A stretch of 64,000 nucleotides of DNA from an archaeon HR01. Lineage in GTDB: Archaea > Thermoproteota > Nitrososphaeria_A > Caldarchaeales > Caldarchaeaceae. Shown here one piece after another: positions 47,467 through 49,814 of this stretch. The DNA lies in NCBI GenBank assembly GCA_002898355.1, contig BEHD01000008.1, forward strand, positions 1-64,000, given 5' to 3'. Below the pieces are notes generated by a model. It saw nothing but the letters and a program-made list of their open reading frames with translations. It was not told the DNA's origin and did no database searches. The position numbers were made by a program, and so were the translations under genes. Position 1 is the stretch's first letter, and every line of letters starts with the position of its first letter.

Positions 47467-47880
47467 TTAGGCATGGGTGGCTACTATACGCCTGGACTTT
47501 TCAGTTAGGCTGTAGCGGAAGGGTTTACCGTCCCTCGCTACCAGCCCTGCCTCGTATAGGTTTTTTAGGAGTCTCGCCACGTGCTCCCTGCTCATCTTCA
47601 AAGCGTTGGTGACGTCACTTGAGGTCACGCTTCCCCTCTCGTTAATCAGCTTAAGGGCGGCTATGGCTGTGGGTGTTAGGTGGGCTGGTGGATGTGGCTC
47701 ATCGGCCTCCCCCTCCTCAGGTTTCTGCTGCTGAAGCCTGCTCTCCAGCTCCATAAGCTTGGCCGCCAGAGCCTCCATCCTTGTGACGTCTAGTTGCATC
47801 ACAATTCTCCTCAGTATAAGGAGGAATATGACGGTCTGGATGGCTAGGAGGGCTGCGAAGAAGACTGTGATGTCCTGCAT
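47467..47880 (-). CDS. Predicted membrane-anchored winged-helix regulator
   Basis: N-terminal TM ITVFFAALLAIQTVIFLLILRRIV, short coiled coil, C-terminal wHTH TPTAIAALKLINERGSVTSSDVTNALKMSREHVARLLKNLYEAGLVARDGKPFRYSLTEKSR. Confidence 0.75.
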   Translation of the reverse strand: MQDITVFFAALLAIQTVIFLLILRRIVMQLDVTRMEALAAKLMELESRLQQQKPEEGEADEPHPPAHLTPTAIAALKLINERGSVTSSDVTNALKMSREHVARLLKNLYEAGLVARDGKPFRYSLTEKSRRIVATHA

Positions 47881-47881
47881 G

Positions 47882-48298
47882 CTACATCCTCCCTGACAGC
47901 TCTTCCACCATCTTCTTCACGGTCTCCATATCCTTCTCCTCCACAGCCTCGCTGAATTGGAAGAACCAGCTGTAGGATGGTAGTTTGATGATACCCAGAT
48001 ATGATAGGAGTAGTAGCGTGTGTAGTGCCTGGCTGATATTGCGTAGGGCCTGCTGCCTAGTTCTGGTGAAGGAGCCCTTGCTTACACCTCTGAGTCTCGC
48101 CTTCTCCTCCGATGTAAGCTGTGATGTCATGAGGTCATATAGCAGTGTCTCGGCCTGTGTATGGGTTAGGCTGGACCTTTCTAGGAGGTACTGGTAGAGA
48201 CGGTCTTCCGCCAGTCTGTGGGTTAGAGAACGGATATTCTGGGTTTCAGGACTTTTCCCACTCAAACCCCTTCCCAGGGATACATTTTTGTAAACCAC
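47882..48298 (-). CDS. Uncharacterised HTH-like protein
   Basis: LTHTQAETLLYDLMTSQLTSEEKARLRGVSKGSFTRTRQQALRNISQALHTLLLLSYLGII looks like a helix-turn-helix; 1 bp upstream of the membrane wHTH gene. Confidence 0.6.
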   Translation of the reverse strand: MVYKNVSLGRGLSGKSPETQNIRSLTHRLAEDRLYQYLLERSSLTHTQAETLLYDLMTSQLTSEEKARLRGVSKGSFTRTRQQALRNISQALHTLLLLSYLGIIKLPSYSWFFQFSEAVEEKDMETVKKMVEELSGRM

Positions 48299-48309
48299 CG
48301 CTATATAGC

Positions 48310-48490
48310 ATCACTGGATATCACACTGATTTTTCATACGCTACACATCCCTACGTATTACCCTTGTATCTCTGCGTATTTTCCCGGTTTTTCCGTAGTT
48401 TCTCCCAGTTCTACTTCGTGATTTCTGTGATGTCAACGAAAAATCTGAAAACACCACAGCCAATGATAAGCTTATATCCGCTACATCACA
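48310..48490. promoter_or_regulatory. Divergent promoter region with five ATCAC/GTGAT motifs
   Basis: ATCAC at 48310, 48320 and 48485; GTGAT at 48418 and 48427. Exact inverted pair TGTGATGT (48426-48433) / ACATCACA (48483-48490). Plus-strand TATA GCTTATATCC at 48470-48479, about 25 bp before the ATG at 48501. Confidence 0.5.
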
Positions 48491-48500
48491 ACTCTATACC

Positions 48501-49814
48501 ATGAGAGGTGTGGAGTTTATAGCATTAGTCGTTGTTTTAGCCCTACTACCGTTGGCGGCTTATGCTGACGGCTACTCCTCCATAGTGGATAATGGCAGGA
48601 TAAAGTTCAGCCTCCACTATCCTGCAGAGGTTAAGATTGGCTCATGCTTCACCCTCACATTCCAGACCACCATTATGGACTCGATTAATATTGAGCGGCT
48701 CAAGCTCACCGTAACATATGTAAGCGATGCAGGCAGCACCAACATCCTCTCCGACACCATCATTTCGTCGACAACCTCCTTCACAGCAGGCGACACCATC
48801 AACAAGGCCTACTCGATATGCGTTCCCAGGACTGCTGCGAGGGACCCTGTGGTGGTGGCGAGCCTCTTCGCCAACTATACTAGAGATGGTGGCGCTGAGC
48901 CTTTGACCCATAACTGGATGCTGGCTGTGGCAAGGGAGAGGACCTACGATGAGTTGGTCCGGGAGCTTGCCGAGGCTAGGTCATCCATCAACAGCCTCCA
49001 AACGGAGGTAAACAATCTAAGGGCTGAGGCTACAGCTTTGAGGGGGAGGGTTGATTCGCTGGGCCGGGAGATAGCTAGACTGGAGACCCTTCTAGCCGTC
49101 TCAGAGCAAGATTATGACGAGCTGAAGGCTAGGTATGAGAATCTGGATACAGAGTTCAAAGCCCTCAACGAAAGATATCTTAGAACTCTCGGAGACCTCC
49201 AGAACCTACAGGCCAGATATGACGAGCTGGGCCGGGAGAACCAGGCCCTCTCAGCCAACTATGACAAGCTCTTGGAGAGCTTCAACAGCCTCTCAGACGA
49301 CTTCAAGGCCTTACAGGCTTCCTACAGCCAGCTCAACACGGTCTATCAGGAGTTGAGGGATAGGCATGAGGCCGCAAAGCAGCAGATAGGGATGCTGCAG
49401 CAGCAGCTCGACGACACCCGTAAGTCCTACGACCTGCTACAGCTGAGCTACAGCTCCCTCAGCCAAGAGAATGCTATGACTAGAAACCTGGCTCTGGCCC
49501 AGGCCTTAGGCCTTGCAGGTATCAGCTCGGCTGCTGCCAGCATATTCCTCACCAAGCGGAGGGGCCGGCAGAAACCATCCACCACTCCCAGCCTTCCACC
49601 TCCTCCACCACCGCCTCCAGGCCAGCCATCCCAGGGCCAGACTCCAGCAACACCCACAGTGGGTGCGGGAAACGGCAGGGTTCAGAGGGTTCTGGCTGGC
49701 AGGCGTGTGACTATACCGGCCGAATATGCGGCCAGGCTGGGTCTGAAAGAGGGTGAAAGCATCTCGGTGGAGGTAGTGGATGACTCCCTAGTTATCAGGC
49801 CTGTAAAGACCTAG
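48501..49814 (+). CDS. Predicted single-pass membrane protein: signal peptide, beta-rich extracellular domain, long coiled coil, TM, Pro-rich linker, C-terminal AbrB/SpoVT-type domain
   Basis: FIALVVVLALLPLAAYADG; heptad-rich YDELKARYENLDTEFKALNERY..; TM LALAQALGLAGISSAAASIFLTKRRG; PPPPPPPPG; VQRVLAGRRVTIPAEYAARLGLKEGESISVEVVDDSLVIRPVKT. Confidence 0.85.
   Translation: MRGVEFIALVVVLALLPLAAYADGYSSIVDNGRIKFSLHYPAEVKIGSCFTLTFQTTIMDSINIERLKLTVTYVSDAGSTNILSDTIISSTTSFTAGDTINKAYSICVPRTAARDPVVVASLFANYTRDGGAEPLTHNWMLAVARERTYDELVRELAEARSSINSLQTEVNNLRAEATALRGRVDSLGREIARLETLLAVSEQDYDELKARYENLDTEFKALNERYLRTLGDLQNLQARYDELGRENQALSANYDKLLESFNSLSDDFKALQASYSQLNTVYQELRDRHEAAKQQIGMLQQQLDDTRKSYDLLQLSYSSLSQENAMTRNLALAQALGLAGISSAAASIFLTKRRGRQKPSTTPSLPPPPPPPPGQPSQGQTPATPTVGAGNGRVQRVLAGRRVTIPAEYAARLGLKEGESISVEVVDDSLVIRPVKT

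Follow-up and report, generated by a model that had tools for sequence, protein, structure and literature searches.

Here we report that a membrane protein of the archaeon HR01, from the hot-spring order Caldarchaeales, has the shape of a long surface rod whose cytosolic end carries an AbrB-type domain; the rod, acting from the membrane, probably regulates the gene that encodes it. Our main reading, to which we give a probability of about 0.68, is that the surface stalk is a transmembrane one-component regulator that autoregulates its own gene. The gene lies in the window, i.e. the 64,000-nucleotide stretch of contig BEHD01000008.1 analysed here; the source genome is 1.76 Mb in 32 contigs and 93% complete. 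The literature searched yielded no AbrB-type DNA binder placed in this way, inside the cell on a surface rod.

A surface stalk with a cytosolic AbrB tail

The gene and the parts of its product are located in the window as follows.

48501..49814, forward strand: stalk protein (P0001), 437 aa, a surface stalk with a cytosolic AbrB tail (open reading frame and translation; orthologs in 39 of 44 order genomes)
48501..48566, forward strand: signal peptide, aa 1-22, ending in AYA before DG (hydropathy 2.41; position kept in the alignment; cleavage site placed by eye)
48567..48938, forward strand: extracytoplasmic beta-sandwich, aa 23-146, with invariant C49 and C107 (AlphaFold pLDDT about 90; alignment)
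48945..49460, forward strand: coiled-coil stalk, aa 149-320, about 25 heptads with Tyr at a and Leu at d (AlphaFold; heptad analysis)
49494..49550, forward strand: transmembrane helix, aa 332-350 (hydropathy and flanking charge, 30 of 30 orthologs)
49554..49568, forward strand: KRRGR, aa 352-356, positive-inside signal (sequence; charge)
49596..49619, forward strand: polyproline run, aa 366-373, in a variable linker (sequence; linker identity and dN/dS)
49671..49811, forward strand: AbrB/SpoVT domain, aa 391-437, motif (Q)(K/R)x(L/I)(S/A)GRR(V/I)T(I/L)P (Pfam; NCBIfam; alignment; dN/dS)

The preliminary description of this DNA had proposed a signal peptide, a beta-rich region and a long coil, then one transmembrane helix with KRRGR on its cytoplasmic side, and the analysis confirms that layout over the 437 residues. 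Hydropathy reaches 2.41 in the N-terminal segment and 1.64 at aa 332-350. In the AlphaFold monomer, the beta-sandwich (23-145) is modelled at a pLDDT of about 90 and is followed by one helix (149-319) mostly above 90, the transmembrane helix has low confidence (about 42-50), the linker (371-398) is disordered, and the AbrB helix and last two strands reach a moderate 71-80. A Foldseek search with the tip returned Ig/arrestin-like sandwiches only, which is unspecific; the two tip cysteines are invariant and fit an exported disulfide. The coil keeps one unbroken heptad register over aa 149-320 (period 3.50, 84% hydrophobic residues at a and d), and among orthologs Tyr occupies position a in 46% and Leu position d in 78% of cases, an unusual Tyr-Leu zipper in which indels are, in most cases, whole heptads. 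At a rise of 0.1485 nm per coil residue, its 172 residues span about 26 nm.

The AbrB tail is on the cytosolic side of the membrane. The net charge of the stalk protein is 0 before the transmembrane helix and +5 after it, and across 30 aligned orthologs it runs from -1 to +1 before the helix and from +3 to +5 after it; because the charge rises after the helix, the C-terminus is placed inside in 30 of 30. A PPPPPPPPG linker had also been described. The run of prolines is indeed present (P366-373), but it is missing from several genera of the order; since it is not conserved, the linker is best regarded as variable and the run as no defining part of the architecture. In five order genomes, all proline runs of at least seven residues readable in frame (loci L010/L175 in genome G003, L161, L165, L176 and L168, and the window at 49596-49619) lie on a tail or linker beside a transmembrane helix of a membrane protein, including unrelated proteins such as a metalloprotease-coil-transmembrane protein, multi-transmembrane proteins and a transmembrane winged-helix protein. 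The L010 metalloprotease (HEAGHxxGxxH) ends in coil, transmembrane helix and polyproline as the stalk does.

The tail is ancient and its sequence is under selection

The stalk protein occurs in all eight genomes of its family, and a clear ortholog was found in 39 of the 44 genomes of the order, mostly draft assemblies (38 near-complete orthologs and one fragment, in G040); the class-level search covered the same 44 genomes. The same architecture, which the preliminary description had suggested looking for in other archaea, was thus recovered in the 32 orthologs in which the AbrB tail can be read in the sequence, and the tail is absent from seven, namely the orthologs of genus g2 (four genomes) and three from genus g13. 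When mapped on a tree of the protein body, presence or absence of the tail changes three times, which makes the tail ancestral and its absence the result of separate losses; on this tree the architecture is ancestral to the order and the tail has been lost at least twice. No relic AbrB sequence was found downstream of the stop codon in tail-less orthologs. A chance fusion or a chimera in a metagenome-assembled genome was ruled out, as the same architecture recurs across many genera.

Beyond the order, a search of 399 phylum genomes with the tip gave distant relatives in other families, with signal peptide, beta domain, coil, transmembrane helix and a short basic or proline tail, all without AbrB, of which the weakest (E around 1e-4 to 1e-5) may share only an Ig-like fold. 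A search of 300 phylum genomes with the tail gave, among the matches listed, the orthologs down to E 4.7e-16 and then a clean gap; past it, again among the matches listed, come small soluble AbrB proteins and, of the longer matches inspected, PhoU-AbrB proteins, with no other membrane-anchored AbrB. Together, the tail-less relatives and this gap indicate that a type of surface stalk widespread among archaea acquired its AbrB domain in Caldarchaeales.

The C-terminal domain itself had been recognised as AbrB-type from the letters alone, and profile searches confirm it: PF04014 matches aa 402-436 of the stalk protein at E 3.8e-9 (36.8 bits, the curated cut-off being 24.7) and the tail alone at 41.8 bits, and TIGR01439 of NCBIfam matches at E 5.4e-8. 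The domain is common to 26 aligned orthologs, in which the motif given above is nearly fixed. The tail is the best-conserved region and is under selection, with a mean pairwise identity of 47% (tip 38%, coil 34%, linker 25%) and the lowest dN/dS of the protein (0.083, against 0.132 for the coil, 0.149 for the tip and 0.270 for the linker). G400, R401, R402, P406 and G418 are invariant in 26 of 26 tails and position 396 is always basic, so that charge is kept in the hairpin loop region, beyond the core residues, with an invariant GRR.

In sequence the tail matches B. subtilis AbrB, Sso7c4 (2l66/5itm) and MazE (1mvf), which are small soluble proteins whereas the stalk tail is membrane-anchored. 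The DNA-binding arginines are R23 and R24 in AbrB and R11 and R22 in Sso7c4 (PMC5222340). In the tail, the helix arginines R23/R24 and R22 are replaced and an RR stands in the loop instead: aa 410, at the helix site R22/R23, is A, V, L or M and non-basic in 26 of 26, which counts against DNA reading. In a gapless alignment, position 396 (K/R) corresponds to Sso7c4 K8 and R402 to AbrB R15, and R401 is new. With the helix arginine missing and the loop basics present, the tail has a basic patch of its own, and its predicted DNA contact residues are not simply inherited from AbrB or Sso7c4.

A candidate operator upstream of the stalk gene

The promoter region of the stalk gene and the genes beyond it contain the following features.

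48341..48379: candidate operator CTACA-N5-CTACG-N9-TGTAT-N5-CGTAT, four half-sites (found once in the window; no match in 100 shuffles)
48465..48479, forward strand: TATA-like element GATAAGCTTATATCC, putative, about 28 bp before the ATG (sequence)
48479..48485: extra half-site CGCTACA between the TATA-like element and the ATG (sequence)
47882..48298, reverse strand: 138-aa protein, its gene divergent from the stalk gene with the candidate operator between the two (no Pfam match)
47467..47880, reverse strand: protein with N-terminal transmembrane helix and MarR-like winged helix, beyond the divergent 138-aa gene (HTH_27, E 9e-8)

With the TATA-like element only about 28 bp ahead of the ATG, the stalk gene start is likely leaderless; a sigma-70 promoter scan was set aside as not meaningful for archaea. 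The element at 48341-48379, CTACACATCCCTACGTATTACCCTTGTATCTCTGCGTAT, is a palindrome of two inverted pairs between divergent genes. Across the 44 genomes the four-half-site pattern occurs in three places only, at the window gene and at its orthologs in G036 and G037, which belong to another family; as the pattern was written after the sites had been seen, only its absence elsewhere and its sharing between families count. In the ortholog promoters, TGTAG pentamers recur with a spacing of 10-11 bp, and most lie 50-76 bp ahead of the start. Strict tandem repeats were found at 8 of 26 AbrB-bearing genes, at none of the 7 AbrB-less ones and at none of 183 control starts, and a looser tandem form at 14 of 26, 0 of 7 and 2 of 183, respectively. 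The B. subtilis AbrB site is TGGNA-4/5 bp-TGGNA, which the candidate operator resembles in having pentamers about 10 bp apart (PMC8552724, PMC11497800).

Because the motif was not to be chosen by eye, all 6-mers in the 200 bp upstream of 32 AbrB-bearing orthologs were ranked against the starts of 181 other genes in the same loci. GCTACA (TGTAGC) came first (22 of 32 versus 5 of 181, p 1e-25) and CGCTAC (GTAGCG) second (23 of 32 versus 10 of 181, p 1e-21), and the next 6-mer trailed by over ten orders of magnitude, at 2e-9. GTAGCG is present in 9 of 11 AbrB-bearing genera, for which the genus-level chance is about 3e-7, and in none of the seven AbrB-less orthologs (Fisher 0.001, species not being independent). 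It is missing in g5 and in g10, the latter with tandem TGTAG, occurs in only one of three in g6, and is all that is left of the motif, as single GTAGCG elements, in g3 and g4. Half-site number, orientation and spacing differ between genera, which counts against our main reading. In most genera half-sites are located upstream of the TATA region; the window and g13 also have them between TATA and the start, so both activation and repression are possible. A genome-wide search for a regulon by tandem TGTAG gave no excess over the reversed pattern; most of the tandem matches examined lie inside genes, and no other target was found among them.

Loss of the tail was found in two lineages only; in one of them, g13, tail loss with operator decay constitutes a natural experiment. 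Five g13 promoters align well, and 24 operator and 66 flank positions were compared. Between the two AbrB-bearing species, 1 of 24 operator positions and 13 of 66 flank positions differ; comparisons among the AbrB-less species give 9-14 of 24 in the operator but just 5-11 of 66 in the flanks. In these promoters the candidate operator is conserved where the tail is present and drifts where it is missing. A further point against our main reading is that in the AbrB-less g2 genomes the promoter region is also rearranged. That the upstream half-site tracks the presence of the tail gives independent evidence that the tail may read DNA at its own promoter.

Neighbouring genes

The 138-aa gene adjoins the transmembrane winged-helix gene in g1, g3 and g4, divergent from the stalk gene, and the winged-helix neighbour is kept in the three AbrB-bearing genera of the family. 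As this gene pair (47467-48298) faces the operator, it is possibly a second target. The winged-helix protein is a second membrane-bound DNA-binding protein, with a match in 30 of the 44 order genomes. Elsewhere, in G007, a metalloprotease gene (L124:2570-5203, Matrixin match) adjoins the stalk gene. The ten neighbouring genes of the orthologs are metabolic, transport, protease, RNA-binding or of unknown type, and neighbours change between families.

Alternative explanations

The protein could instead be mainly structural, a SlaB-like stalk for an S-layer or coat whose tail serves as a dimer clamp or protein binder and reads no DNA. Indeed, SlaB, the Sulfolobales S-layer stalk, has the same order of parts, namely signal peptide, beta-sandwich tip, coil and C-terminal transmembrane helix (PMC6911244), relatives of our protein outside the order lack AbrB, and where the tail was lost, at least twice, the stalk was retained. 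However, SlaB has two to three sandwiches and is a trimer, with no AbrB tail described (PMC6911244), and we found no sequence link: the tip has no PDB match, and with the NCBIfam SlaB model the stalk protein reaches 26.7 bits, where the cut-off is 700, over aa 68-222, much of it coil. A clamp would also leave the invariant GRR of the hairpin loop, beyond the core residues, and the tracking of the tail by the operator half-site unexplained, and we consider this explanation unlikely.

Alternatively, another factor could read the operator, for example a soluble AbrB-like protein, and its coincidence with the tail would then be a phylogenetic accident of two or three losses. Indeed, the tail was lost in two lineages only and the tree needs just three label changes. 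Against this, the flanks and TATA of the g13 promoters stay and only the repeats decay. The transmembrane winged-helix neighbour was considered as the reader and is excluded by its distribution: no match to it turned up in family f2, where genus g7 nevertheless retains the motif in five of six cases, and it is present in AbrB-less g13 genomes that lost the motif. Overall, a reader other than the tail seems rather improbable to us.

The preliminary description had left the choice between a one-component transmembrane regulator and an envelope-to-chromosome tether, and topology, AbrB domain and order-wide conservation support this putative pair of roles. As a tether, the tail would bind many DNA sites with little specificity and anchor the nucleoid to the envelope, for which the archaeal AbrB-fold protein Sso7c4, an architectural DNA binder (PMC5222340), offers a precedent and the variable-length linker the reach. 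A conserved gene-specific site argues instead for specific regulation, and tandem sites show no genome-wide excess, so that we give the tether little credence. A membrane-bound antitoxin, with the AbrB domain as part of a type II toxin-antitoxin pair, is highly improbable: PF04014 is best known from MazE/VapB antitoxins and the first PDB match of the tail profile is MazE, but a scan of the ten neighbouring genes found no known toxin family, PIN and MazF-like included, and those neighbours differ between families.

Proposed mechanism and known regulators

For the autoregulating stalk, we propose that Sec would export the N-terminus, placing a disulfide-stapled beta-sandwich at the tip of a parallel coil of about 26 nm, with one transmembrane helix anchoring the stalk and a flexible linker holding the AbrB domain inside the cell. 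The coil would pair two AbrB halves into a swapped-hairpin dimer, and this dimer may bind the repeated YGTAG(CG) half-sites in its own promoter. The state of the surface, such as a tip that is engaged or free, or the abundance of stalks, might thereby be fed back to the amount of stalk made.

In one protein, the stalk combines a transmembrane helix with a cytosolic domain that is DNA-binding by family. Transmembrane transcription regulators of the ToxR/CadC type (survey: PMC10269533) are likewise single-pass proteins that act from the membrane, joining an extracytoplasmic part to a DNA-binding domain in the cytosol; the stalk differs in that this domain is AbrB instead of HTH and forms the C-terminus, preceded by a signal peptide and a 170-residue coil. 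AbrB is not mentioned in the main text of that 2023 survey (PMC10269533), whose supplementary domain table may list AbrB-type cases. ArnR and ArnR1 are likewise archaeal one-component membrane-bound regulators and control surface proteins; unlike the stalk, they have an N-terminal HTH, a HAMP-like part and two C-terminal transmembrane helices, with no large outside domain (PMC6396743).

To conclude, membrane-bound regulators are already known, and an AbrB tail on a surface rod would constitute a direct route from the surface to the chromosome, in archaea known mostly from metagenomes and with a candidate operator of defined sequence. More tentatively, and with doubts of our own, the protein may be the principal stalk in the surface coat of Caldarchaeales, its AbrB tail coupling coat assembly directly to transcription. 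If so, the cell wall itself would be the transcription factor for its own gene.
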